Virus record (IMG/VR): IMGVR_UViG_3300035670_001343
Location: 1-22,216 of that record
Source of the DNA: a virus
DNA length: 22,216 nucleotides
Direction: 5' to 3' (one strand)
The notes under the pieces are model-generated. The model saw only the letters and a list, made by a program, of their open reading frames with translations. It was not told the origin of the DNA and made no database searches. How positions within the stretch are numbered: the stretch's first letter is position 1; every line of letters starts with the position of its first letter. Of the stretch, positions 38 to 22,216 are shown piece after piece. A program made the translations under genes and the position numbers.

Positions 38-469
38 TTAGACTAAGTCTTTACGGAAGAATTTACCTAGAATATTATCATTATAAGAATTATAACTTAA
101 TAAACATTCATTTGTGCACTGGTAATATAATTCGTAATATGTTAGTTCTTTTTTATCTTTACAAAGTTTTAGAATAATACATTCAAACATTTCAGCACCT
201 AATTCTTTAACATCTTGTTGTAATTCTTTAGATGAACCCCAATAAGATTTCCAGTCGCTTTCCTTAATTACTTGCTTTGTAGTCGATTTTCTTCCTCGAG
301 TCACGGGAAGTGCTGCTAATTCTTTTTTACCCAATTTAACATTGGAAGTATGGTAGAAATATTTCTTACCAATATAGAATTTACTGTTAGTAAGGTTTGT
401 AATTTTATATACAAATCCAAAGTAGTCTTGAGGATCAAATTCCTCCGAGTGTAACCATTTATTTTCCAT
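38..469 (-). CDS. GIY-YIG nuclease domain protein (Seg-like)
   Basis: A 143-aa protein with the signature of the GIY-YIG endonuclease superfamily. The first half-motif lies at residues 18-22 (GFVYK) and the second at 31-36 (FYIGKK). They are followed by a basic linker, the WKSYWGSS segment at 73-80 and a candidate metal-binding glutamate at E113 in the YYELYYQ helix. In phages such stand-alone domains are usually called Seg-like homing endonucleases and cleave DNA at or near intron-less target sites. Whether this copy mobilises itself or has another DNA-processing role cannot be told from sequence. No separate DNA-binding domain is visible beyond the basic middle region. It is the last gene on the left, 14 nt downstream of a tail gene, and is probably co-transcribed with it. 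The start is the only ATG before the motif; the leader is AT-rich with no Shine-Dalgarno sequence. Confidence 0.75.
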   Translation of the reverse strand: MENKWLHSEEFDPQDYFGFVYKITNLTNSKFYIGKKYFYHTSNVKLGKKELAALPVTRGRKSTTKQVIKESDWKSYWGSSKELQQDVKELGAEMFECIILKLCKDKKELTYYELYYQCTNECLLSYNSYNDNILGKFFRKDLV

Positions 470-1618: not shown

Positions 1619-4231
1619 TTAACAAAATGTTGGGAATCCTGAAAAATCTAACCCATCCCAATATCTAACCACAGTTCCATCTGAATAATATCCTGCTGGA
1701 GCTAAAATTGTTCCTCCTGCATCTGTATACAATACTGACATGCTATTTAGGTTTGCAGTATCTGAATAGTAATTACTATAAGTTAAATCAGTACATGCAC
1801 GGAATTCATTAGTACCATAACCTAATGATACTAAAATTAAACCGGCTGGTTGTGATGTAGACGGTGTTATACTTGGTGTAGGTGTTATTGATGGTGTTGT
1901 CGATGTTGATGGGAACGGTGTTACACTAGGTGTCCCAGATGGTGTAATCGATATACTTGGAGTAACACTTGGTGTTTTACTAACACTCATACTTGGTGTT
2001 TTACTTACACTAATCGATGGTGTTACACTTGGTGTTTTACTTATGCTTGTACTAGGTGTTACTGATGGAGTAGCACTAATCGAAATTGATGGTGTTACTG
2101 ATGGTGTTTTACTTATACTTGTACTTGGAGTAACACTAATTGAAATCGAAGGTGTTACACTTGGTGTTTTACTTATGCTTGTACTTGGAGTAACACTTGG
2201 GGTAGGACATGGATTAGATGTCTGACATTCATTACAATCAACACCATATGTTGATGGTGTTTCATTTCCACTCCATGTTACAGTTGCTATTGATTCAAAA
2301 TTACTTGAAACGGTATAACATTCACCTGTTGTTGATGTTACTACTGATCCTATGAAAGCATTTGATATTATCATTCCTTCTTTTTTACCTGTGCAACAGC
2401 TTAATACTTGACGTAAATTAAGAGGTGAAGAAGTTGATGGTGTTATCGATGGTGTTACACTAATCGAAATTGAAGGTGTTACACTTGGTGTTTTACTTAT
2501 GCTTGTACTTGGAGTAACACTTGGAGTAGCACTTATACTAACACTAGGTGTAATACTTGTACTAGGTGTTACTGAGGGAGTAGTCGTTATACTAACACCA
2601 GGTGTTGTCGAAATTGATGGAGTAACACTTGGAGTAGCACTAATCGAAATTGATGGAGTAACACTTGGGGTAGCACTAATCGAAATTGATGGAGTAACAC
2701 TTGGAGTAGCACTAACACTCATACTTGGTGTTTTACTTACACTAATCGATGGTGTTACTGATGGTGTTTTACTTATGCTTGTACTAGGTGTTATCGAAAT
2801 TGATGGTGTTACACTTGGTGTAGCGCTAATTGATATACTAGGTGTTATACTAGGTGTTGTGCTTATTGATATACTTGGAGTAACAGATGGTGTTTTACTT
2901 ATACTTGTACTAGGTGTTACTGATGGAGTAGCACTAATACTAATACTTGGAGTAACAGATGGTGTTATTGATGGTGTTACTGATGGGGTAACACTAATCG
3001 AGATCGATGGTGTTATTGATGGAGTAACACTTGGGGTAGCACTAATTGAAATCGAAGGTGTTACTGATGGTGTTTTACTTACACTTGTACTAGGCGTTGC
3101 TGAAGGTGTAATACTAACTGAAGGAGTATTACTTGGTGTTATTGATGGGGTAACACTTGGGGTAGCACTAATTGAAATCGAAGGTGTAGCTGTTACACTT
3201 GGGGTAATAGATGGTGTTCTACTAACACTAATAGTAGGAGTAATACTTACAGTTATCGATGGTGTAGCCGTTATACTTGGAGTAACAGATGGTGTTGGTG
3301 GTGGTAATTCTACAATTCCTATTTCAAATTCACATTCAGGATCAGTTACATTAACAGTTATACTTCCTGTACCACTCATTAAAGGAGCACAATAAGAACC
3401 AGTAACTAAAAATGTATAAAATGTTTGATAGACTCCAGTTCCCAAACCAGAAAAAGACATAGATACTGTATTGTCTGAACCAGTAGTAAAGAATGATATA
3501 TCACCTCCAAACAAAGAAATAGATTGATCAACTAATGTATTACCTCTTAAATCATCATTTAATAAAGGATTAAATGAGAATGTTGCTGGATTAGGATAAT
3601 CACTTCTTATAAGTGTATAATTATCATTATAAGCAACTGGGGGTAATACAAATAAGGTTTGAAAGTTTTGATCTGTAATTACTATTGTACCTTGCTCATA
3701 AAAAATATTACCCACATGAGCTGGTGGGTTACTATTAAAGTTATCATAAACATTACCTTTACCATCATCGTAAAAATTATATGCAGATGATGACATTTGG
3801 AAAGTGTAAGGTAATAATCTACTCCCGTAAGCTTTAGGTGATATTTGTATTACTTTTATTGTTTCATTTGCACCCGTAGGAAAATTAGCAATAAAAGCAG
3901 GATCATTATTATAATTAAAGTATGAAGCAGTAGGGTGACTACTGCTAGCTGATTCATAATATAATGATGATGCTAAAGAAGATGTATTTAAACTACCTGA
4001 AAAATCATGGTAGAATAATTGGTTTATTTGTCGGTAAGTTAATCTATCGTATTGCCCATTAGTTATATAATCCCCATTAGGGTTAAATAAATCTACTGCA
4101 TTTATACCATTATAATACGAAACATAAGGGTCATTAGTTGGAATTGGACAATAGTTAAAGTTCCAACTTTTATTTGCTACAACAGGTACTGTTATAACAT
4201 CCGAAGATTTTAACTTTTTGAATGAACCCAT
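1619..4231 (-). CDS. Large repeat-rich tail fibre/adhesin candidate, 870 aa
   Basis: Domains in order. Residues 1-~195 form an N-terminal virion-type domain with no recognised enzyme motif. Residues ~198-296 form an Ig-fold of the bacterial cadherin-like kind, with PPVAYNDNYT at the front, LLNDDLRGNTL in the middle and GSITVNV at the end. Residues ~310-600 are a long TPS repeat stalk. Residues ~601-675 are a cysteine-rich insert (six Cys, including CC and a C-x2-C pair). Residues ~676-794 are a second repeat stalk. Residues ~795-870 are a small C-terminal domain ending in Cys that is related to the end of the 247-aa neighbour. The architecture of anchor, Ig domain, stalk, knob, stalk and tip fits a long fibre or adhesin. 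Host binding is inferred. Codon positions in the stalk are strongly repetitive, so length changes by recombination are likely. No Shine-Dalgarno sequence precedes the ATG. Confidence 0.7.
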   Translation of the reverse strand: MGSFKKLKSSDVITVPVVANKSWNFNYCPIPTNDPYVSYYNGINAVDLFNPNGDYITNGQYDRLTYRQINQLFYHDFSGSLNTSSLASSLYYESASSSHPTASYFNYNNDPAFIANFPTGANETIKVIQISPKAYGSRLLPYTFQMSSSAYNFYDDGKGNVYDNFNSNPPAHVGNIFYEQGTIVITDQNFQTLFVLPPVAYNDNYTLIRSDYPNPATFSFNPLLNDDLRGNTLVDQSISLFGGDISFFTTGSDNTVSMSFSGLGTGVYQTFYTFLVTGSYCAPLMSGTGSITVNVTDPECEFEIGIVELPPPTPSVTPSITATPSITVSITPTISVSRTPSITPSVTATPSISISATPSVTPSITPSNTPSVSITPSATPSTSVSKTPSVTPSISISATPSVTPSITPSISISVTPSVTPSITPSVTPSISISATPSVTPSTSISKTPSVTPSISISTTPSITPSISISATPSVTPSISITPSTSISKTPSVTPSISVSKTPSMSVSATPSVTPSISISATPSVTPSISISATPSVTPSISTTPGVSITTTPSVTPSTSITPSVSISATPSVTPSTSISKTPSVTPSISISVTPSITPSTSSPLNLRQVLSCCTGKKEGMIISNAFIGSVVTSTTGECYTVSSNFESIATVTWSGNETPSTYGVDCNECQTSNPCPTPSVTPSTSISKTPSVTPSISISVTPSTSISKTPSVTPSISISATPSVTPSTSISKTPSVTPSISVSKTPSMSVSKTPSVTPSISITPSGTPSVTPFPSTSTTPSITPTPSITPSTSQPAGLILVSLGYGTNEFRACTDLTYSNYYSDTANLNSMSVLYTDAGGTILAPAGYYSDGTVVRYWDGLDFSGFPTFC
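1850..2206 (-). repeat. Thr-Pro-Ser coding repeat, distal stalk
   Basis: Second stalk block of the 870-aa protein, encoding units such as TPSVTPSISISKTPS. Plus-strand unit words GGTGTTTTACTTATGCTTGT and GGAGTAACACTTGG recur many times. The same words occur in the proximal block, so the two blocks can recombine with one another. Confidence 0.85.
2434..3304 (-). repeat. Thr-Pro-Ser coding repeat, proximal stalk
   Basis: About 870 bp of imperfect tandem repeats encoding (S/T)xTPSxS units. The clearest higher-order unit is 36 bp and encodes VTPSISISATPS. Three nearly identical consecutive copies lie around 2595-2710 and differ by single bases (GGAGTAGC versus GGGGTAGC), which points to recent duplication there. 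The repeat also keeps a long plus-strand frame open by chance; I do not read that as a gene. Confidence 0.88.
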
Positions 4232-13957: not shown

Positions 13958-14373
13958 TATACAAAGTTAACTGTTATATTATCGGTATCTCCTGAAATTA
14001 GTATTACGTATGCTATTTTTACAAGTAATGTATTAGATGACTCATTAGGTTCTATTAATAATTCAATATTTTGAATTGATACTTCGGGTACATATATACC
14101 AACACTATTAATTATGTCTTCTCTAACATTATTTAAAGTATCTTCTGTCATTTGTCCAAATAATTGACTTCTTAAAGTCGTACCAAAATTTGGATTTTCT
14201 ATTCTTTCTCCTTTAGAGGTTAATACTAAATTAATTAAATTAAATTTTATTTGCTCTCTTGTAGAATATATACTATTAAAAACCCCTGGAGCATTAAATG
14301 GCAAACCAACACCAATAGCGGTGTTGACTTGAAAATCTCTTGGGTCAACTCTAGTACTTCTAACGTAAGCCAT
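13957..14373 (-). CDS. Baseplate wedge protein, gp25-like
   Basis: A 138-aa protein of the GPW/gp25 family. Diagnostic segments are REQIKFNLINLVLTSKGERI at residues 39-58, the PNFGTTLRSQLFG turn at 61-73, and TLNNVREDIINSVGIYVPEV at 79-98. The family is the most conserved wedge component of contractile injection systems and bridges the sheath-initiating region and gp6. Family proteins in T4 and P2 are of similar size (about 110-140 aa). Start and stop are both coupled to neighbours by TAATG overlaps, upstream with the 120-aa gene and downstream with gp6. The N-terminal ~25 residues are an unremarkable extension. Confidence 0.9.
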   Translation of the reverse strand: MAYVRSTRVDPRDFQVNTAIGVGLPFNAPGVFNSIYSTREQIKFNLINLVLTSKGERIENPNFGTTLRSQLFGQMTEDTLNNVREDIINSVGIYVPEVSIQNIELLIEPNESSNTLLVKIAYVILISGDTDNITVNFV

Positions 14374-14735
14374 TATTGTGCACTTCTAAAATTATTTAAA
14401 TCAGCTGGATTGTTTCTCATTTCTGATGCTACTTGAGCTAACAAATCTGAGTATACATTTTGTTTTTCTGCAAATGTTTTAGGAGCTTCTGGTTTCATAG
14501 TATCGGCTATCCCCATTTTTTCCATTAAACTATGACGCAACGCTGGGTTTGTATTTCCTGTGTTGAAATTCATAGTAGGCCATGCTTCATTAGTATTAGA
14601 GGCAGGCGGTGGATTATAAGGTAAACCATGCGAAATAGATTCATTAATTTTCTGTTTACCTAATTCTGCTAATTCTTCTTTTAAAACCTCTCTTACGGCT
14701 TCTTTAATTAATTTTTTTAATTCTAATGTTTTCAT
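14373..14735 (-). CDS. Uncharacterised 120-aa protein with amphipathic N-terminal helix
   Basis: The first ~25 residues (MKTLELKKLIKEAVREVLKE) form a highly charged amphipathic helix. They are followed by a Pro/Asn-rich, probably disordered middle (GLPYNPPPASNTNEAWP) and a short helical C-terminus (YSDLLAQVASEMRNN). It is small and lacks Cys and catalytic motifs. It sits directly upstream of gp25 with a TAATG overlap, and its own start lies 11 nt after the coiled-coil/membrane gene. An assembly chaperone, scaffold or minor baseplate connector are all compatible with this. I do not recognise a family. Confidence 0.55.
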   Translation of the reverse strand: MKTLELKKLIKEAVREVLKEELAELGKQKINESISHGLPYNPPPASNTNEAWPTMNFNTGNTNPALRHSLMEKMGIADTMKPEAPKTFAEKQNVYSDLLAQVASEMRNNPADLNNFRSAQ

Positions 14736-14746
14736 ATCAATAAATA

Positions 14747-16033
14747 TTAAGCTTCAAGTCTTCGTTTGTCAATTTCTAATCTTAATTCGTCAATTAGAAC
14801 CTCAGGATCTAATGTAAATGATGGTTCTGATTGTAGTGCTATAAATCCACTTCGGTCTAAAGCAACAGCATATCTTCGTTTATTACCTGCTACTACAAAT
14901 CTAGGATCATTTTCTTCTAATATGGAGAAAGTAAATCCATTATATTCAACTCCAAGTACAGGACCTAACCCTCCATCTAACCCAACACCAGAAGTTTCTA
15001 ATAAATCTCTTGCTTCTTGTGGTGTCATATTTGGATCATCTAATATTTTACCTAATGGAAGTAACCTTGAACGTTCATATTGAATAGTTGATTTAAATCT
15101 ACTTAATGTACCTAATGCAATTTGTAATAATATATTTAAGGATATTACTACTGGAGCATATTTAGCTATTGTTCTTGTTGTTTTGATACCAATAGGTGAT
15201 ATCTGATACGGTGTATATGGAATAGCTGTCAATACTGATATTGTTAAAGATAGTATTGTTAAAGTAGTACTAATTGATTTAATAGTTCTATTAAATCTAT
15301 TAACCTGGTCTTCTGCTGATTTTAATTGTACTAATGCTGCATCTCTAGCTATTTTTGCTTTTTCTAAGTCTGTTTGAGTAGTTGCATTTCTAATAATGTT
15401 GTTAGTTTTATCTACTAATTCATTTAATTTAGAAACAGTTTGAGATAATTTATTAACTTGATTACTCAATATAAAACCAAAAACAAGTATAATAGCAGTT
15501 GGACCTTGTGATTTTATTATTTGTTTTAAAGCTTTTTTAATTTTAGCTTTATTTAGTTTTATTTTTATACTATCTTTTTTAACCTTTAATTTTTCTTTTA
15601 TTCGGTTAACATCTTTTTTTTCTTTTAAAGGACGTTCCGCTGTTAATATACTTAACTGCTCTTTAATCTTATCGATTTGCTTTTTAGCACCTTCAACAGC
15701 TTTCTTAGCTTTTTCTAATTCTTGCTCTGCTTTTCGTTCTATTTTTCTGATAGCTTCTTTTCTATCATTTATAGTTTTAGCTCGCTGCTCTGGTGTTATA
15801 TTGTTAGCAAGCGCAGCTATAGCTGCAGTTCCTAATGCGGCTGCCGCAGCTGGTGAGCTTATATTGGGAAGAGTAGGGGATAAAGCTTTAATAGCATTAG
15901 CTTGTACCTTAGCTTTATTATATAAGGCTTCCGCTTTACTATACTGAGCCTCAGCCTTTTGATAGAGTGATTTAGACTCATCAAGTGCTTTTTTAGCTGC
16001 TTTTATTCTATCTTGATTACTAGGACTAGCCAT
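14747..16033 (-). CDS. Coiled-coil and membrane-segment tail protein, 428 aa
   Basis: Residues 1-50 and 83-170 are long Lys/Glu/Ala-rich helices with coiled-coil character (ALDESKSLYQKAEAQYSKAE; EKAKKAVEGAKKQIDKIKEQ), separated by an Ala-rich hydrophobic stretch at 60-77. Hydrophobic segments follow at about 178-190, 253-271 and 291-309. Another helix lies between the first two, and a soluble C-terminal domain of ~115 residues contains VEYNGFTFSILEE and YAVALDRSGFIALQSEP. This is not a conventional tape measure by length. The mixture of coiled coil and membrane-like helices in a baseplate operon suggests a hub-associated protein that could contact or cross the host envelope during infection, which is inference. 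It starts with a TAATG overlap of the gp5-like gene. Family unknown. Confidence 0.55.
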   Translation of the reverse strand: MASPSNQDRIKAAKKALDESKSLYQKAEAQYSKAEALYNKAKVQANAIKALSPTLPNISSPAAAAALGTAAIAALANNITPEQRAKTINDRKEAIRKIERKAEQELEKAKKAVEGAKKQIDKIKEQLSILTAERPLKEKKDVNRIKEKLKVKKDSIKIKLNKAKIKKALKQIIKSQGPTAIILVFGFILSNQVNKLSQTVSKLNELVDKTNNIIRNATTQTDLEKAKIARDAALVQLKSAEDQVNRFNRTIKSISTTLTILSLTISVLTAIPYTPYQISPIGIKTTRTIAKYAPVVISLNILLQIALGTLSRFKSTIQYERSRLLPLGKILDDPNMTPQEARDLLETSGVGLDGGLGPVLGVEYNGFTFSILEENDPRFVVAGNKRRYAVALDRSGFIALQSEPSFTLDPEVLIDELRLEIDKRRLEA

Positions 16034-17232
16034 TATATTGTATTAGAAATTTTTGAAAGTAAATTTTCATTAAGTAATGTTTTATTTAATACCTCTAATT
16101 TATCTTGAAGCGCAATAGCAGCATCATTAATAGTATACAAAGGAGTACCTTCAGGTTGCGATATTGTGTTGGCTATATTAGATGAAAAATCACTTAACGT
16201 TAATATTAAATCAGATAACCACACATTTAATGTACATCCTAACACTAAGGGTTCAGGAGTAAGTGCATTATTGTTAGGACCTAAAAATATTTGATTGTCT
16301 TGTAATGCTAAACCAACTTTATCACTTTGTAAATAAATTGGTCCTTGTGAGTAAGCTTCAATTCCGGTTTTACCTAATATTAAAACTTCATCTGATTTTG
16401 AAGATATAATAGTTCTATCAGCATTTATTATAACTTGAGGATCTGTAAAATCTCTAACATTAATAGGGTTAGTAATATTACTAAACGCTATATTACCTGT
16501 ATCTAGAGGTATAGATTGATTTGATGTTAAATAGACAGATGATCCATCTTTATTAATATCTTCAACATATAAATCTGAACCTGGTAGTTTAAAATTATGT
16601 TGAGTTGTTATTAATGTGATGGGGTTATTGGTTAATTCATTAGGATTAGTAGACCAAGGAGTTAAATCTAAACCACCGGCTTTATTTGTACTACCAAAAC
16701 GAAGGGAATTTCCAAATCTACCTTCTAATAAATAGTCACCTTCAAATGTTTGTAATCCTCTAAAATCTGAGTCTTGGTTAAATGAATTATATAATACTTC
16801 TTTATCATCATTTAAGAATAAACCATTAAATTGGGTACTATTCCATGCATTAATTACACTAACATAATAAGTTTCATCTGTTTTGTTAGTAATAGGTGAT
16901 GGTGCTGATGGTAAGTCCATTAACATGACAATCTCACCAGGTAATGGGAAATATTTTTGATTAGGATATAAAGGTAAAGCTGTATCTAATTCTGATAATT
17001 GTTGATCATTTAGAGACTCTAGAGGTAACTCTGTGTCTTCTCTATATTCAGCATATAAAACAGTACCAATACCAGCCCATCCTCCATTATCGATCCAGAC
17101 TTGTTGAGGAACGCTCTGTTCATTTAATATAACAGCATATACTTTTCCTACTTTATATCCTTGAGGAGTAGTATAGTTGTTAAACCCAATATTGGCCGTA
17201 ATATTAGATAAACCGGCTCTAACTCTAGTCAT
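16033..17232 (-). CDS. gp5-like baseplate hub/spike protein (OB fold)
   Basis: A 399-aa protein. Residues 26-130 look like the N-terminal OB domain of gp5/VgrG-type spike proteins (YKVGKVYAVILN, GWAGIGTVLYAEYRE, PLPGEIVMLM, TYYVSVINAWNS). At 163-182 is the FEGDYLLEGRFGNSLRFGST segment, which I associate with hub/spike proteins of T4-like marine phages. The region after it (PITLITTQHNF, DGSSVYLTSNQSIPL) resembles the start of a beta-helical or beta-prism needle. No lysozyme domain, as inserted in T4 gp5, is visible. Residues ~270-320 continue the beta pattern (VIINADRTIISSKSDEVLIL) and the last ~80 residues are helical. The gene lies 3 nt after the 118-aa gene and opens the baseplate set. The assignment rests on motif memory and operon context. 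Confidence 0.65.
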   Translation of the reverse strand: MTRVRAGLSNITANIGFNNYTTPQGYKVGKVYAVILNEQSVPQQVWIDNGGWAGIGTVLYAEYREDTELPLESLNDQQLSELDTALPLYPNQKYFPLPGEIVMLMDLPSAPSPITNKTDETYYVSVINAWNSTQFNGLFLNDDKEVLYNSFNQDSDFRGLQTFEGDYLLEGRFGNSLRFGSTNKAGGLDLTPWSTNPNELTNNPITLITTQHNFKLPGSDLYVEDINKDGSSVYLTSNQSIPLDTGNIAFSNITNPINVRDFTDPQVIINADRTIISSKSDEVLILGKTGIEAYSQGPIYLQSDKVGLALQDNQIFLGPNNNALTPEPLVLGCTLNVWLSDLILTLSDFSSNIANTISQPEGTPLYTINDAAIALQDKLEVLNKTLLNENLLSKISNTI

Positions 17233-17235
17233 ATA

Positions 17236-17592
17236 TTATTCTTTAGTTGGTCCTTCTAAACCATTTCCTACTTCAGCAACAGCAGAAAATAATTGTTCTT
17301 TTTCAGCTTCACTTAATATAAAACCACCTACACTATCTCCTTCACCTAAAGAAGCAGCACGTTGAACTATACTAGCTAATTTAATTAATTGTTCATCATT
17401 TTTAACACTAATGTTAAGATAATTTGCAATTAATGGAACTATAGTAAGAGCTGAGTGATTATCTGTAATAAATGGTTTTAGAGTACTTATTAATTCTTTA
17501 ATTTGTTTTTCCTTTTCTTTAGAATTGGCATAAATATCTTTTAACAAATCGGAGAACTTTTTATTACCCCATATAGTTTTATCAAAATCCAT
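17236..17592 (-). CDS. Uncharacterised helical 118-aa protein
   Basis: A 118-aa predominantly helical protein (KFSDLLKDIYANSKEKEKQI; LTIVPLIANYLNIS; EAEKEQLFSAVAEVG). It has no Cys, no membrane segment and no catalytic motif. It is the first gene of the morphogenesis block: the ATATTTATAA motif lies 14 nt before its ATG, and the gp5-like gene begins 3 nt after its stop. By analogy with compact baseplate operons it could be a hub assembly factor or minor tail protein. No family is recognised. Confidence 0.6.
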   Translation of the reverse strand: MDFDKTIWGNKKFSDLLKDIYANSKEKEKQIKELISTLKPFITDNHSALTIVPLIANYLNISVKNDEQLIKLASIVQRAASLGEGDSVGGFILSEAEKEQLFSAVAEVGNGLEGPTKE

Positions 17593-17606
17593 ATAAATTT
17601 ATTTTA

Positions 17607-17616
17607 TTATAAATAT
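17607..17616 (-). promoter_or_regulatory. Candidate late promoter motif ATATTTATAA
   Basis: Exact 10-mer on the coding strand, 14 nt upstream of the 118-aa gene, in the 39-nt gap after the sigma-factor gene. It would start the structural block. The context TATATTTATAATAAAA is nearly the same as at 12129-12138. On the plus strand the core reads TATAAATA, the T4 late -10 consensus, but in the opposite orientation to the genes. On the coding strand the nearest match is TATAATAA. Confidence 0.5.
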
Positions 17617-17631
17617 AAAAATTAACAAAGA

Positions 17632-18387
17632 TTATACATTAATGTAGTTATCCTCATAATATTTATTATATAATTCAACATATATAGTTTTAAGCTTCTT
17701 AATAATTTTAGTTATCTGAGGAGTATCCACATCTATCATTTCACGAATGTAGATATATAAAGCTTTCTTATTAAATATATCTAATGACTCACATTTACGA
17801 AATAATTCAATTATAGCGTCGGCTGTTTTAGCATCTATTTCTTTAGGAAACAATTTATGAAGATTTTTATCAACATATTTAGTATATAAAGACATAAACT
17901 CACTTACACTATAATCTTGACCGTAGTGATCATTTATAATTTCTTCTCGTATTGTTTTATCTTCTTCAACCTCCATTAAATCTCCTTTGTCTTGGAGTTT
18001 TTGATAGTTTTTCTTATTTTTAAGGATCAAATAACGTTTAGCTATTGTTCCAAAATAAGAATATGCCTTACCTTTAGCAGGTTTATATAATTTAAGTTTT
18101 TCAAGTAAAAAAGCAATTACTTCTTGTTGCACATCCTCAACAGACTCACCATCAGTATAATAGAATTTAAACGTATGGATTATGTTTTGAGTTAGTTTAA
18201 AAAATCCATATTCAATACGTTCGCGATATACTCTATCTCTAAAATTCTGGTCTTGGGATCCAACATATTCTACAATAGCATTTTGTGTATCTTCTGTAAA
18301 ATATGTATGTGATGTTTTGGGTTTACGTTTACGGGGCTTACCTGATTTGGTAAGCTCAATCGTTACTACATTATCTTCTAACTCCAT
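17632..18387 (-). CDS. Late-transcription sigma factor, gp55-like
   Basis: A 251-aa sigma-70-superfamily protein. After a basic N-terminus (KSGKPRKRKPK, residues 14-24), residues 76-122 match sigma region 2 in the gp55 style: YYTDGESVEDVQQEVIAFLL, then KLYKPAKGKAYSYFGTIAKR. These carry the helix contacting the RNA polymerase clamp and the aromatic residues for -10 melting. A second helical segment at about 205-237 (NKKALYIYIREMIDVDTPQI, then KIIKKLK) could be a degenerate DNA- or flap-binding helix-turn-helix. T4 gp55 is shorter (185 aa) and directs host RNA polymerase to late promoters with the clamp loaded by gp33/gp45. The start lies inside the end of the upstream membrane-protein gene (17-nt overlap). 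The structural genes immediately downstream are its likely targets. Confidence 0.8.
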   Translation of the reverse strand: MELEDNVVTIELTKSGKPRKRKPKTSHTYFTEDTQNAIVEYVGSQDQNFRDRVYRERIEYGFFKLTQNIIHTFKFYYTDGESVEDVQQEVIAFLLEKLKLYKPAKGKAYSYFGTIAKRYLILKNKKNYQKLQDKGDLMEVEEDKTIREEIINDHYGQDYSVSEFMSLYTKYVDKNLHKLFPKEIDAKTADAIIELFRKCESLDIFNKKALYIYIREMIDVDTPQITKIIKKLKTIYVELYNKYYEDNYINV

Positions 18388-18652
18388 TTAAATTAAAATC
18401 ATCTAATTCGTTCTGTAATGTTTTTACACTCTCAAAAAACCATCCAATCTCATCATCAGATTTAAATGTTCCTTTTTCATCTATCTCATCTAATCTTCTA
18501 TTAGTAAAGTCTACTGTATTGGAAAATTTAGCTATATATTGTTCTTGAGAATCTACTATTCTTTCTAATTGTTCAACTTTTCTAAATAAATTATAAGAGA
18601 TATATCCTAATAAAAGGACAATTAATACTAATATAATTACAAATGTTATCAT
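18371..18652 (-). CDS. Small single-pass membrane protein with coiled coil
   Basis: A 93-aa protein. Residues 2-22 form a strong hydrophobic helix (ITFVIILVLIVLLLGYISYN) with little before it, so the N-terminus is probably outside or signal-anchor-like. A charged helix follows at 23-60 (FRKVEQLERIVDSQEQYIAK) with coiled-coil spacing, then an acidic tail. It overlaps the sigma-factor start by 17 nt and begins 2 nt after the 61-aa gene. Spanin- or holin-like roles are conceivable for a small phage membrane protein, but no lysis motif (lipobox, dual-start, endolysin neighbour) is present. Function unknown. Confidence 0.65.
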   Translation of the reverse strand: MITFVIILVLIVLLLGYISYNLFRKVEQLERIVDSQEQYIAKFSNTVDFTNRRLDEIDEKGTFKSDDEIGWFFESVKTLQNELDDFNLNGVRR

Positions 18653-18654
18653 AA

Positions 18655-18840
18655 TTAATAATTTATTTCGTCATTCTCGTTTGAAATGGTACCATATAGA
18701 TCAGATACTAATTCTTTTAAACCATCAATAAGTTGTTTAATTTCTTGGATTGAAGCGGCACGTCCGATGCTACTATCTAAAGAGTTTATTCTATTTTGAA
18801 TTTTCTCTACTTTGCTAAGGGCTTGTGTTTTGTATTTCAT
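18655..18840 (-). CDS. Uncharacterised helical 61-aa protein
   Basis: A small helical protein (MKYKTQALSKVEKIQNRINS; IQEIKQLIDGLKELVSDLYG) ending in an acidic tail, 2 nt upstream of the membrane-protein gene. A longer reading from a GTG at 18924 (89 aa) is possible. I choose the ATG at 18840 because a good sigma70-like promoter (18869-18897) lies inside that longer reading, with its start point predicted near 18862. The extra N-terminus would also be unlike the rest in composition. The 28-nt distance from the -10 box to the ATG matches the other promoter of this kind in the window. Function unknown. Confidence 0.6.
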   Translation of the reverse strand: MKYKTQALSKVEKIQNRINSLDSSIGRAASIQEIKQLIDGLKELVSDLYGTISNENDEINY

Positions 18841-18868
18841 CTTGTTTAAATTTTTATAGTTATAATGT

Positions 18869-18897
18869 ATTATACGAAAGGAGGAGGCGGTAGCCAA
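18869..18897 (-). promoter_or_regulatory. Sigma70-like promoter for the 61-aa/membrane/sigma operon
   Basis: On the coding strand, TTGGCT (18897-18892), a 17-nt spacer and a perfect TATAAT (18874-18869). The spacer ends in TTTCG directly before the -10 box. It lies between the terminator at 18964-18994 and the 61-aa gene, so it would restart transcription for the operon that ends in the late sigma gene. Confidence 0.65.
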
Positions 18898-18963
18898 GTT
18901 TTTTTTAAAAACAGTGTATCTCACGCCACTATCAATAGATACATATATATAAGATGGTGAAGG

Positions 18964-18994
18964 ACAAAAAAACCCGCCTTTTTAGGGGCGGGTT
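18964..18994 (-). terminator. Intrinsic terminator of the accessory operon
   Basis: On the coding strand, AACCCGCC (18994-18987), an 8-nt loop and GGCGGGTT (18978-18971) form a perfect 8-bp stem followed by T5 and TGTCC. It lies 24 nt after the stop of the 131-aa gene and separates the accessory operon from the next promoter. It is the clearest terminator in the window. Confidence 0.9.
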
Positions 18995-19000
18995 ATGTCT

Positions 19001-19020
19001 ATTGTTGTGTTTATTAATTA
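19001..19020 (-). repeat. Stop-plus-leader direct repeat, copy 1
   Basis: On the coding strand this reads TAATTAATAAACACAACAAT and begins with the stop codon of the 131-aa gene. It matches copy 2 (19412-19432) except for one missing A. In copy 2 the sequence leads straight into an ATG. Here it continues ATAGACAT, so the start codon and the following gene are gone. Confidence 0.8.
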
Positions 19021-19413
19021 CATTCCTCCGAAGTCTTCACCTTTTGATGAACGAGCAAAAAAGGCAACTGCTACTCTACCATCGGGAAGAGTGTAATATC
19101 CTGCCTTTGAACCGTAAGTTGGGTCTTTCATAGCTTTCTCTAGTTCTGCTTTTGTATCAAAGATTAAAAAATTTGTATATTCATCACCTCTATCATCGAT
19201 TAATGCAGTATACATAGGAAAATCAGGGCTTACTCTTTTCTTAACTATCTCAGCGTCAGCGTAATCTTCTTCTTCCTCTTCATAGTTACGTTCGTCATCA
19301 TAATCATTATAGGTATCTCGATGTGATGCATCTCTATCCCACATTTCATTTTCAGTAATAATACCTGCTAGTTTTTGAAGGCGAGCAGCCTCTGTTATGA
19401 ATTGTTTTTTCAT
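19018..19413 (-). CDS. N-terminal-tag protein A, 131 aa
   Basis: A 131-aa acidic protein that begins MKKQFITEAARLQKLAGI, almost the same as the first 18 residues of the adjacent 139-aa protein. The two diverge completely after that. A very acidic stretch (about residues 38-54, YDDERNYEEEEEDYADAE) precedes a compact alpha/beta region (MYTALIDDRGDEYTNFLIFD; GYYTLPDGRVAVAFFARSS). The common N-terminal helix followed by unrelated bodies suggests a sorting or targeting tag. T4 internal proteins share such a capsid-targeting leader of the MK-x-FI-x-EA kind. That comparison is from memory and the role is inferred. The leader AATAAACACAACA has no Shine-Dalgarno sequence. The gene ends the operon before a strong terminator. 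Confidence 0.6.
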   Translation of the reverse strand: MKKQFITEAARLQKLAGIITENEMWDRDASHRDTYNDYDDERNYEEEEEDYADAEIVKKRVSPDFPMYTALIDDRGDEYTNFLIFDTKAELEKAMKDPTYGSKAGYYTLPDGRVAVAFFARSSKGEDFGGM

Positions 19414-19432
19414 TGTTGTGTTTATTTAATTA
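19412..19432 (-). repeat. Stop-plus-leader direct repeat, copy 2
   Basis: On the coding strand this runs from the TAA stop of the 139-aa gene (19432-19430) through TTAAATAAACACAACAAT into the ATG of the 131-aa gene. The pairing with copy 1, including the stop codon, marks the edges of a tandem gene duplication. Confidence 0.8.
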
Positions 19433-19849
19433 TCCTCGTTCTAGGTTTCTTATTAGATCATTGTCTAAAATTTGACTTTTCAAATCATCAGACATTTCAT
19501 TCCCATTTAAAGCTTGTTGAATGTCTGAATATGTGAATACTCCGTCAAATGCAAGAGGATCATTAGAACCACCTCCTTCACCCATAGTATCGGCTAGGAT
19601 AGTTATTAATTCATCTGCATTATTATCTTGGGCAGCATAAAATATAGCGTCAATAACCATATCATCTTCTATATTACCTCCAAGGCTATTAACAAAATCG
19701 AATAATTGATAAGCATTAACTTGAGTATTTCTATCTAAATTATCTACTTTAGCATATAATCTTTCATACCCTGATGGGTCTTGATTCTCTTTTAAAATAC
19801 CTGCTAGTTTTTGAAGGCGAGATGCCTCTGTAATAAATTGTTTTTTCAT
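19430..19849 (-). CDS. N-terminal-tag protein B, 139 aa
   Basis: A 139-aa acidic protein with the N-terminal tag MKKQFITEASRLQKLAGI shared with the following gene; nucleotide identity over the tag is also high (both contain CTCGCCTTCAAAAACTAGCA). The body is different: it is helical (NAYQLFDFVNSLGGNIEDDM; ADELITILADTMGEGG) and ends with FTYSDIQQALNGNEMSDDLK. No catalytic motif or membrane segment is visible. Its ATG overlaps the stop of the upstream 88-aa gene (ATGA), implying coupling. A head-packaged internal protein or a product of modular tag swapping are the most interesting readings; both are inferred. Confidence 0.6.
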   Translation of the reverse strand: MKKQFITEASRLQKLAGILKENQDPSGYERLYAKVDNLDRNTQVNAYQLFDFVNSLGGNIEDDMVIDAIFYAAQDNNADELITILADTMGEGGGSNDPLAFDGVFTYSDIQQALNGNEMSDDLKSQILDNDLIRNLERG

Positions 19850-20112
19850 GATTTGATTGATTGTAATATTTCTTTTAAACTAATTTTCTTAACTCTAAAG
19901 TTAAAAGCTTTTTGATCAATAAGTTGATCTAATACTTTTTCCTCTATAGGATCACCTGTTACAAAAATAGATTTATCATCATCTTTATTTTCAGGTACAT
20001 CAACAAAACTAGTATTATCAACACCTAAACCAGGTTTTAATTGAGATAATACTTTATTCATTTTATTGATAAATGCTGCTTTGTCTTTGTCTTGTATTAC
20101 GTATTCAGCCAT
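19846..20112 (-). CDS. Uncharacterised 88-aa protein
   Basis: An 88-aa protein (MAEYVIQDKDKAAFINKMNK through SLKEILQSIKS) with mixed alpha/beta character and a Lys-rich C-terminus; no Cys or catalytic motif. Longer readings from 20166 or 20205 would add a hydrophobic N-terminus (LLVLFPIIMQVF) and the longest would run into the T5orf172 gene. I prefer the ATG at 20112, which leaves a 40-nt gap. A 9-base match to the late motif (ATATTTATA, plus-strand 20134-20142) sits 21 nt before it. Its stop overlaps the next start (ATGA). Function unknown. Confidence 0.5.
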   Translation of the reverse strand: MAEYVIQDKDKAAFINKMNKVLSQLKPGLGVDNTSFVDVPENKDDDKSIFVTGDPIEEKVLDQLIDQKAFNFRVKKISLKEILQSIKS

Positions 20113-20133
20113 ATATGGTTGTATTAATTTAGG

Positions 20134-20142
20134 TATAAATAT
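20134..20142 (-). promoter_or_regulatory. Partial match to the late motif (ATATTTATA)
   Basis: Nine of ten bases of the ATATTTATAA motif, 21 nt upstream of the 88-aa gene. It is weaker than the three copies in the structural block because the bases after it (CCTAA) diverge and the spacing is longer. It may be chance in AT-rich DNA. Confidence 0.25.
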
Positions 20143-20152
20143 ATTAGTATTA

Positions 20153-20626
20153 CTAAATACTTGCATTATTATCGGAAATAACACCAGCAATTGTCTCCTC
20201 AGCATAGGGTATAGTTACAGCAAATCCCTCTTTATTAACGTGAAATGGTTTAAGTTTTTTATGTATCAAAGACTCAATTTGTAAAGGCGCTCTACATGCA
20301 AAAGCATTAACAATGTACCAAGGTGTAATAACACCAGTAGCACCATTAATTTCCTTAACACGCTCTTGTGGTGTGCGGTCAGTGTAACCTATTTTCAAAA
20401 GGCCCGGTAGACTCTTATTCCCTAGAATATAGATATACCCCTCATTAAACGACAAAGCAGCATTAAACTTATTATTCTTAATCCAATAATGAACATAATC
20501 GTTAAATTCGTCATTAGGATCTTGCGTTAACGTGTATCCATCGGCATGATAACATGACACGCCATCAGGCTTAGGATAATAATCCAATTTAGCCTCTTCT
20601 AATGTTATGCGTTTAAATTCTCCCAT
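20153..20626 (-). CDS. T5orf172 / GIY-YIG superfamily protein, 157 aa
   Basis: Residues 62-135 carry the T5orf172-type variant of the GIY-YIG nuclease fold: a GYIYILGN strand at 63-70, LLKIGYTDRT at 76-85 with an arginine in the turn, an ERVKEIN helix at 88-94, and a glutamate-bearing helix IESLIHKKLKPF at 117-128 (E118). The ~60-residue N-terminus has no recognised domain. T5orf172 domains occur in phage and mobile-element proteins with presumed DNA-nicking activity; the substrate here is unknown. The start at 20626 is chosen over an earlier ATG at 20671 because the latter lies inside the upstream gene, and because GGAGAGG sits 5 nt before this ATG. That is the clearest Shine-Dalgarno sequence I saw in the window. 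It begins 1 nt after the 331-aa gene. Confidence 0.7.
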   Translation of the reverse strand: MGEFKRITLEEAKLDYYPKPDGVSCYHADGYTLTQDPNDEFNDYVHYWIKNNKFNAALSFNEGYIYILGNKSLPGLLKIGYTDRTPQERVKEINGATGVITPWYIVNAFACRAPLQIESLIHKKLKPFHVNKEGFAVTIPYAEETIAGVISDNNASI

Positions 20627-20627
20627 A

Positions 20628-21623
20628 TTAACCTCTCCAAGCCTGTTCAACCATACTATCCATATCTGCACTTAGAGCATTACAATCTATTACTCGTTCT
20701 TCCATTGGTATTTCAACGTGTTCTTCAACATCAAATACTTCATCATATGTAATAGCTCTACGAACAGCTAATCCTAAACCACCTACGTTTTCAGCTATGG
20801 TTGGTTCGCTTAGTTTTTCATGCGTAAGCTTTACTCCTTTAGCTTCATCTGACATTAACTCCCAGTTGGTGATAGTAACATTACTGAATTGGTATTTAAT
20901 AATATCTAATACATGGCTTGGAAGATTAGCTTCCATAGAATCTATACGGATATCCTTAACATCCCAGAATGATGTTTCATACTCATAATCAGTATTAAGA
21001 TTCTTAAACGCTGCTACTTTATTACCCGTAGAACGATTAATACAATAAATCAAAATACCACGACGAGAATAGCGAGCAAAATACTCAGGATCGTGCCTCA
21101 TAGCGGTACACCACTTAGTTGAAGCACCATATTTTAAAGAAGCATCATATGATAATGGTTTTAAAACCAACCATTCATCCGAATCATATAATACTTCGGT
21201 TTGTGCTTGTAATTCCTTACTAACTAATTTTAGTTCTGCTAATGAAACCTGACTTTCCATTTCATCAAAACTCTTGTAAGTAGTTACATCGCTTTGGTTG
21301 ATTAATTTCCGTTCGTTATAGTCAACAAAATTGGTTAAAAGTTCGGCGTGTTTACTTCCTACAAGTACGTTGTAGAAACAAAACATCATTTCCAAGTCAT
21401 TCGGATGTAGATTGTCTATTTTTTCTTGTGGGATACAATACGCGTCAACTAAATCATGTTTGACTGTTTTGATCCATTCTGGTGTAATGTCGGTTGTTTT
21501 GTTTTTAAACAATTTAATAGCCATCTCAACGTATTTAGGTTTTTCAAATACGTAACTTAAAACATCAATAAATGATTTGTCGTAATAAGGGTGCTGTTTT
21601 TTTAATTCATCAATTTTGGACAT
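20628..21623 (-). CDS. TKWCTA-motif protein, 331 aa
   Basis: A 331-aa protein of unknown function. Residues 1-100 are helical (SFIDVLSYVFEKPKYVEMAI; DLEMMFCFYNVLVG). The conserved-looking core is residues 151-200: WLVLKPLSYDASLKYGASTK, then WCTAMRHDPEYFARYSRRG and a strand ILIYCIN. The W-LKPLS-AS-YGA-TKWCTA pattern is one I associate with phage proteins and with the PcfJ-like group of mobile elements, which carry a similar His/Cys core. The catalytic state is unknown. After residue 260 the protein is acidic (EVFDVEEHVEIPMEERVIDC). It is preceded by a 39-aa gene (5-nt gap) and followed within 1 nt by the T5orf172 gene, suggesting one transcript and possibly one function. Confidence 0.65.
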   Translation of the reverse strand: MSKIDELKKQHPYYDKSFIDVLSYVFEKPKYVEMAIKLFKNKTTDITPEWIKTVKHDLVDAYCIPQEKIDNLHPNDLEMMFCFYNVLVGSKHAELLTNFVDYNERKLINQSDVTTYKSFDEMESQVSLAELKLVSKELQAQTEVLYDSDEWLVLKPLSYDASLKYGASTKWCTAMRHDPEYFARYSRRGILIYCINRSTGNKVAAFKNLNTDYEYETSFWDVKDIRIDSMEANLPSHVLDIIKYQFSNVTITNWELMSDEAKGVKLTHEKLSEPTIAENVGGLGLAVRRAITYDEVFDVEEHVEIPMEERVIDCNALSADMDSMVEQAWRG

Positions 21624-21628
21624 AACTT

Positions 21629-21748
21629 TTAATCTTTAATTACTAAATAAGCGGTTTTATCTTCTAAATATTTAACTTCACCTGAGTCAATTAAGGCTTG
21701 GGTGCCTTTAGGATCAAGTTTACCTAATATCTCAATTGTTTTTTCCAT
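21629..21748 (-). CDS. 39-aa small protein
   Basis: A short reading frame with ATG at 21748 and TAA at 21629: MEKTIEILGKLDPKGTQALI, then DSGEVKYLEDKTAYLVIKD. The helix-strand pattern and the charged composition look like a real compact protein. It sits 5 nt upstream of the 331-aa gene and 32 nt downstream of a good sigma70-like -10 box, as expected for the first gene of an operon. It is too short for most gene finders. Function unknown; antitoxin-like or regulatory roles are open but not shown. Confidence 0.6.
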   Translation of the reverse strand: MEKTIEILGKLDPKGTQALIDSGEVKYLEDKTAYLVIKD

Positions 21749-21780
21749 GTATATTATCATAACTTTTTAATTTAAGGCTA

Positions 21781-21809
21781 AATATACGAATGTCCTTTTT
21801 TGTCTCCAA
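21781..21809 (-). promoter_or_regulatory. Sigma70-like promoter for the accessory operon
   Basis: On the coding strand, TTGGAG (21809-21804), a 17-nt spacer and TATATT (21786-21781). As in the promoter at 18869-18897, the -35 begins TTGG and the spacer ends TTCG next to the -10. The spacer contains the ACAAAAAAGGACATTCG A6 motif. It would drive the 39-aa, 331-aa, T5orf172 and downstream genes. Confidence 0.6.
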
Positions 21810-22170
21810 CCTCTCGTATATACGTTTTGAAGTGGGAAAAAGATCGTTAAAAAGAGAGATTTCGGGGTCTTGGATTTTGCTCTAAAGGGGGTATAATGGA
21901 TTTTATGATATATTTGTATATACGGGGGGCGCGGGGCGAATTTTGTTGTCTTGTTGTAGATACGGGGCCTGCCGGCGCGTTTTTGTCGCATCGTCGATGG
22001 ACCGCAATTACCGTGGGCCCACTTCGCTGTCGCTCCGCGCGCGCAGCGCTAGCGGATCGATAGATCGAAGGAGGATGTTCTTTTTTGTCACACACGCCAG
22101 ACCCGCCTGAAGCCAGAACCCTGCCCGTCTTTTTTGTCACGCGCGCGCATACATGTATTTAGATCAATGA
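21810..22170. other. Non-coding GC-rich, palindrome- and repeat-rich block
   Basis: About 360 bp without a credible gene; the AT-rich genome changes abruptly to GC-rich runs (GGGGGGCGCGGGGCG, CGCGCGCGCAGCGCT). It holds several perfect 10-bp palindromes: CGTATATACG at 21815-21824, GTGGGCCCAC at 22013-22022 and ATACATGTAT near 22148-22157. GTATATACG recurs at 21916-21924, with GTAGATACG at 21956-21964. CTTTTTTGTCAC occurs twice, at 22080-22091 and 22129-22140. Related TTTTTGTC copies are at 21980-21987 and, just outside the block, 21795-21804. A regulatory region, a replication origin, a structured RNA or a foreign insertion are the alternatives. Confidence 0.5.
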
Positions 22171-22190
22171 AGGCGACCTTTTGGCCGCCT
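22171..22190 (-). terminator. Hairpin, possible terminator of an upstream gene
   Basis: On the coding strand, AGGCGGCC, an AAAA loop and GGTCGCCT form an 8-bp stem with one G-U pair. The same bases on the plus strand would give an A-C mismatch, so the minus-strand RNA folds better. No T-tract follows, so termination is less certain than at 18964-18994. Confidence 0.45.
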
Positions 22191-22216
22191 CATGTTAGTT
22201 GTTGTTGTTTGTTTAG

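Follow-up and report, generated by a model that had tools for sequence, protein, structure and literature searches.

A single-copy array of helically phased palindromes in T4-like phages related to Flavobacterium phages, a candidate replication origin

What is a GC-rich, palindrome-packed block doing at the edge of an AT-rich phage contig? The window analyzed here is a whole linear viral record of 22,216 bases (IMG/VR IMGVR_UViG_3300035670_001343), with almost all genes on the minus strand, including baseplate and tail genes, a protein with sigma-70 region 2, a T5orf172 protein, and small ORFs. Its closest cultured relatives are Flavobacterium phages vB_FspM_immuto (hereafter immuto; 43% identity in the baseplate wedge protein). 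The GC-rich element lies at the right edge of the window, transcriptionally upstream of the baseplate, tail, sigma-like, and T5orf172 genes. An initial annotation, made from the letters alone, had drawn attention to positions 21749-22170, and this interval is indeed the GC peak of the contig (0.46 versus 0.31 elsewhere), with 0.57 in its top 250 bp against a maximum of 0.42 anywhere else in the window. The extent of the block needs trimming, as 21910-22170 is GC rich (0.55), whereas 21749-21909 has ordinary GC (0.32). The palindrome excess that had been described is also real relative to dinucleotide shuffles, both for 8-bp palindromes (9 versus 2.2 ± 1.4; 0/300 shuffles reach 9) and for 6-bp palindromes (17 versus 8.4 ± 2.9; 2/300). 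All of the listed motifs occur where they had been placed: CTTTTTTGTC at 21795, 22080, and 22129 and TTTTTGTC at 21980, neither present elsewhere in the window, and CGTATATAC on the plus strand at 21815, with minus-strand readings at 21916 (GTATATACG) and 21956 (GTAGATACG). The two A6 tracts described as identical, the distal pair, do have TCTTTTTTGTCAC in common (22079 and 22128). Among these repeats, GTATATAC belongs to the conserved part of the element, and the A6 tracts are recurrent, movable accessories.

The suspicion that the block is an assembly artefact or foreign DNA is refuted by relatives, as dozens of independent contigs carry the element at a matching genomic position; the GC-rich stretch at the contig end is not an assembly error. 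The comparison with related phages that had been proposed as a check shows a conserved, noncoding element, present once per genome in ~40 further viral contigs belonging to a T4-like group related to Flavobacterium phages. A search with the neighboring baseplate protein gave 71 related loci, and in a tally of blastn and profile searches, the block was never missing from a locus that extends sufficiently upstream and whose baseplate protein is ~33% or more identical. Conservation is deep, with a core of 37 to 40 nt that is 85 to 89% identical between phages at 35% baseplate-protein identity, and the exact 22-base core pattern is present in 24 contigs. Copy number is 1 per record in whole-record searches and 1 in each fetched element-bearing locus. 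A scan of 84,980 genomes of bacteria and archaea (GTDB) gave no match to the exact core pattern, and on this basis host-derived DNA was rejected. There was no convincing blastn match to the element in 50,697 phage records, the sequence was not found in cultured phages, a profile search of the genome parts fetched for immuto and Mel-JY01 gave no homologue, and we found no description of the element in the literature.

How the element is built becomes apparent from 35 versions, a set extended by pattern scans over 2.9 million viral contigs (Table 1). Its main regularity is an 11-bp pitch, missed in the initial annotation because it is on the minus strand and clear only with relatives; the palindromes noticed there are the visible part of this 11-bp array. 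Across the 35 versions, the six-unit array (66 bp) has zero indels and 22/66 invariant positions, including the CG at the end of units 1 to 3, and its consensus reads anncGaTAGCG nnnCgataGCG ntncgataGCG aantGctCCCA cGgtAAttGCG GTCcATCGAcG. The 8-bp boxes are palindromic or nearly so (for example, CGCTAGCG, CGCGCGCG, and TGGGCCCA), shifting the array by 11 gives its highest self-identity (0.435 versus 0.267 ± 0.019 shuffled), and CG dinucleotides follow the same 11-bp period. Boxes may be reversed at unchanged pitch, as in unit 3 of L036 and of L032 and unit 1 of L092, which fits palindromic DNA sites and not RNA. The phasing reaches beyond the array, with TATATACnnATAT at +131 to +134 from unit 1 in 35/35 versions, or 12 x 11 bp ± 2. 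Past this first TATATAC box the spacing loosens, and the second GTATATAC box, 185 to 217 bp from the core, is thus not phase-locked. On the upstream side, an A tract of five or more lies within 33 bp of unit 1 in 26/35 versions (counted by eye), and hairpins differing from that of the window occur at the upstream edge in L020 and L023. The window copy of this hairpin has no T run, and a terminator role for it is putative.

Table 1. Features of the element and of its downstream neighbors in the window
Feature	Position	Strand	Basis or remark
GC hairpin AGGCGGCCAAAAGGTCGCCT, upstream edge	22171..22190	-	Kept in L008, L018, L076
Accessory A-tract (GTGACAAAAAAGA)	22079..22091	-	Repeated at 22128-22140
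Six-unit array, 11 bp per unit, with one palindromic or near-palindromic 8-bp box in each	21992..22057	-	35 versions
Unit sequences in order: ATCCGCTAGCG CTGCGCGCGCG GAGCGACAGCG AAGTGGGCCCA CGGTAATTGCG GTCCATCGACG	21992..22057	-	
Deepest core, near-invariant CCCACGGTAATTGCGGTCCATCGACG (units 4-6)	21992..22017	-	Cross-phage conservation
C/A-rich linker with conserved ACAACAAGAC; contains CGTATCTAC of the initial annotation	21924..21991	-	Alignments
First TATATAC box, GTATATACAAATAT	21910..21923	-	TATATACnnATAT in 35/35 versions
Conserved TATAnCCCnTTT motif	21882..21893	-	Most versions, variable distance
Second GTATATAC box	21816..21823	-	Invariant in 18 aligned sequences
Early-type phage promoter motif TTCGTATATTTAG, facing downstream genes	21778..21790	-	Motif match
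First downstream ORF, 43 aa	21629..21760	-	Not conserved across lineages
T5orf172 (GIY-YIG-like) protein	20153..20638	-	Pfam PF10544, E 3e-14
Sigma-70 region 2 protein	17632..18387	-	Pfam PF04542, E 1.8e-5

A coding function was rejected: the two ORFs that overlap the element (74 and 97 aa) match no family, and in relatives the ORFs lie on either strand or are absent. A noncoding RNA or structured leader, as had also been suggested, would account for strong conservation outside genes in a GC-rich element, and the L077 and L032 versions do fold well, one reversed box making a local hairpin. However, these two are the exceptions, as fold z-scores for most versions are near 0 to positive on both strands; when both strands of the window were folded, the energies equaled those of shuffles (z of -0.09 and 0.67). 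The consensus fold is worth -1.85 kcal/mol, with compensatory changes in 0/8 predicted pairs among 29 aligned sequences, and tRNA and Rfam searches gave no match in the element. We therefore rejected a conserved structured RNA and regard a function at the RNA level as very improbable.

Judged from sequence, the element is best explained as a single-copy, noncoding site where a nucleoprotein complex assembles and acts genome-wide, because it combines a rigid phased palindromic array, an invariant core, single-copy status, independence of its neighbors, and a place at a compositional step. Of such nucleoprotein sites, an iteron-type replication origin is the likeliest, a reading to which we give a probability of roughly one half. 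Protein binding, DNA opening, and origin activity are what we infer on this reading. A candidate phage-coded protein would assemble cooperatively on the double-stranded DNA site; the six palindromic boxes, one helical turn (11 bp) apart, would place the bound subunits on one face of the helix, from which they could reach the TATATAC box twelve turns on. Array and core would anchor the initiator, opening or priming would take place in the adjoining CA-rich, TATATAC-containing DNA, and a transcript may come from the early promoter at the far edge.

The genomic setting offers the main competing explanation. Seven long genomes were rotated to the element; in them, 97 to 99% of the coding sequence is on one strand, and the gene order runs from small early genes through the element and variable genes to a T5orf172 protein (in most) and then the sigma-like gene. 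G001, G002, G003, G015, G016, and G017 are whole genomes of 155 to 183 kb, with 98 to 99% of coding on one strand. Distances from the element across the seven are 2 to 3 kb for the sigma-like gene, 3 to 4 kb for the baseplate, 17 to 22 kb for primase, 33 to 49 kb for the large terminase, 42 to 60 kb for the capsid, and 65 to 107 kb for the polymerase and DnaB-like helicase. The site is where the early genes end and the late genes begin. Immediate neighbors on both sides vary by lineage while the element persists, and the commonest near neighbor is the T5orf172 family, with 28 flank proteins in 34 loci. Many early genes upstream of the element are preceded by the early promoter motif, TTCGTAnnTTTA. 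It is concentrated in the 20 to 25 kb before the element, most clearly in G001-G003 and G007, with hardly any copies downstream. Late intergenic regions are marked by a different motif, ATATTTATA. The 8-mer ATATTTAT, which extends to ATATTTATA, occurs in 63/123 late intergenic leaders of the seven genomes and is a candidate late promoter; its core, TATTTATA, is the reverse complement of T4's TATAAATA.

This layout would suit a master region for transcriptional control at the early/late border, where an activator or repressor on the phased boxes and TATATAC operators would steer read-through or promoters of the sigma-like-gene module. The pileup of early promoters upstream, the early-type promoter at the far edge of the element, and the sigma-like gene 2 to 3 kb downstream in 7/7 genomes are all consistent with such control, which is the chief rival of an origin. 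Yet the first genes past the element differ by lineage, boxes and array are single copy with no regulon, a rigid 160-bp block is atypical of phage operators, and the comparable repeats of immuto lie 12 kb before its sigma gene rather than adjoining it. As a genome-wide operator, GTATATAC was rejected, with 3 to 10 copies per genome, about the number expected by chance by our estimate, and sigma-70 and terminator consensus scans gave matches at chance level. Both a replication origin and a promoter/operator array had been offered as options initially, and both stand; we consider transcriptional control possible but clearly the less likely of the two. The origin is favored by single-copy status together with 11-bp phasing free of indels and TATATAC at 12 x 11 bp, by the turnover of neighboring genes around an element that stays, by coincidence with an A-T skew step, and by 12-bp repeat arrays in immuto at that phage's own skew step in 15-kb windows.

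Other genes of the window have features of their own. The baseplate neighbor at 16033-17232 has a poor predicted structure (pLDDT 50) and weak spike/hub matches, and may loosely be called hub-like. Adjoining minus-strand ORFs at 19018-19413 and 19430-19849 have the same MKKQFITEA.RLQKLAGI leader, which to our eyes recalls the capsid-targeting leaders of T4 internal proteins, and the first of these genes is the sole near-match at the DNA level to immuto within window positions 14000-22216. A protein of 870 aa that carries long TPS(I/V)T repeats (1619-4231, minus strand) is probably a tail fibre or adhesin, and a protein at 38-469 (minus strand) matches PHROG homing-endonuclease families and phrog_447.

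The ends of genomes and contigs bear on whether the element could instead be a pac-like site at which terminase cuts DNA for packaging. The element is single copy; exact end overlaps, as in circular assemblies, are present in G002 (127 bases) and G015 (114 bases), as expected for circularly permuted genomes; and contigs end preferentially on its upstream side, within a few kilobases (33/43, p 6e-4). This bias may reflect physical ends or the variable small-gene zone upstream, from which it is equally expected, and partly the method by which contigs were found. Moreover, long contigs continue through the element and the large terminase gene is 33 to 49 kb away, so a packaging site seems unlikely.

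Composition provides a further line of evidence for an origin. A-T skew at 4-fold degenerate sites drops at the element, and with 30-kb windows the positions that beat it in the seven genomes are 3/332, 24/343, 1/324, 6/366, 2/347, 7/311, and 0/265, the weak rank (24/343) being that of G002. The mean step over the 7 genomes peaks at 0 kb, and with six near-complete genomes combined the element ranks 2/1000 positions, although this random-position test overstates significance, the genomes being related and sharing gene order. The step is support and not proof, because of this relatedness and because the site doubles as the early/late border, so that the step may reflect gene class. GC skew, which the initial annotation had recommended computing, gave a step unlike that in A-T skew and inconsistent between genomes.

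The cultured phage immuto helps to separate origin from gene class. Its genome (NC_055915) has a noncoding region at 66312-66900 in which ACCCGTT-like repeats, recurring every 12 bp, form two arrays (66312-66430 and 66750-66900, ~320 bp apart; shift-12 z of 7.0 and 5.4), and of fifteen ACCCGTT-like heptamers between 50 and 100 kb, two are outside the arrays. In 15-kb windows, the skew step peaks at 62.5 to 68 kb, where this region lies, and is negative at the late border at 75 to 78 kb; in 30-kb windows, the peak is elsewhere. The skew step in Mel-JY01 has no clear match. Like the window element, the immuto region is noncoding, has the locally highest GC and a comparable neighborhood, and carries regular ~12-bp repeats, with GTATATAC in the spacer. 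It differs in its unrelated repeat sequence, its two arrays, and its distance from the sigma-like gene. The kind of locus, but not the repeat sequence, appears to be common to immuto and the element-bearing phages.

How does the element compare with known origins? Origins of the iteron type in plasmids and phages (R6K gamma and lambda ori, for example) have phased repeats at a single locus that is noncoding or near the initiator gene. The element resembles them in its phased repeats (six 11-bp units in 35 versions) and single noncoding locus, and its position is at a compositional switch, albeit one confounded with the early/late border. Unlike them, it has no known gene for a Rep- or O-like initiator next to it, its flanking genes vary, and its units are near-palindromic and about half the usual iteron length. 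Among described origins the nearest is T4 oriE, which is reported to carry 12-nt repeats at even spacing and to depend on an early-mode promoter; active T4 origins are reported to lie near compositional shifts (PMC3016281). The role of the oriE repeats was still ill defined according to that 2010 review (PMC3016281). As described, oriE (NC_000866, 79355) is like the element in its short, evenly spaced direct repeats and early promoter, its position by baseplate genes, and a nearby GIY-YIG gene. In contrast, oriE is inside gene 5, whereas the window element is noncoding, with 11-bp palindromic boxes and an invariant core. The regular repeats that we found beside oriE (L206:5403-5570, T4 79402-79569) are 24 nt long, lie within gene 5, and are apparently coding, probably for octapeptide repeats, which makes the oriE parallel weak and weakens the iteron case for the T4 repeats. 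We thus propose a functional likeness to oriE and not membership. The R-loop origins of the T4 oriF/oriG type combine a middle-mode (MotA) promoter with an unwinding element; at the edge of the window element there is an early-type promoter.

The weak point of the origin reading is the missing initiator. No known initiator was recovered among the neighboring and lineage-specific proteins scanned, and apart from T5orf172, the tested near or lineage-confined proteins include no known replication or DNA-binding family. Fourteen ORFs are absent from immuto and Mel-JY01 and present in at least five of six further genomes with the element; of the seven of these that were scanned, none belongs to a known replication or DNA-binding family. 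The placement of the helicase and polymerase genes, 65 to 107 kb from the element, also counts against an origin. A 78-aa basic protein with no Pfam match (L107:11391-11627, minus strand) is a candidate for binding the element; five of these six genomes have it, whereas immuto and Mel-JY01 do not. ParR-type proteins bind direct repeats of 10 to 12 bp, and the 11-bp pitch would fit a parC-like partition or segregation site bound by a ribbon-helix-helix (RHH) protein. However, ParR, ParM, and TubZ were not matched among the neighboring proteins scanned, and a lytic T4-like phage has no clear need of partition, making this explanation highly doubtful.

To our knowledge, the start of replication in T4-like phages of Bacteroidota is undescribed. 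Tentatively, and with less assurance than we attach to an origin as such, the element may represent a lineage-wide origin of new design, with a helically phased array of palindromic boxes, an invariant core, and an initiator of an undescribed family, the repeats having been replaced between genera while locus and architecture were kept. The element is a precise 160-bp target present in many genomes, and the analogous repeat region in the cultured phage immuto permits direct tests of origin activity. If it is an origin, it would offer a way to find a new family of initiators and to place fragmentary viral contigs in position and orientation.
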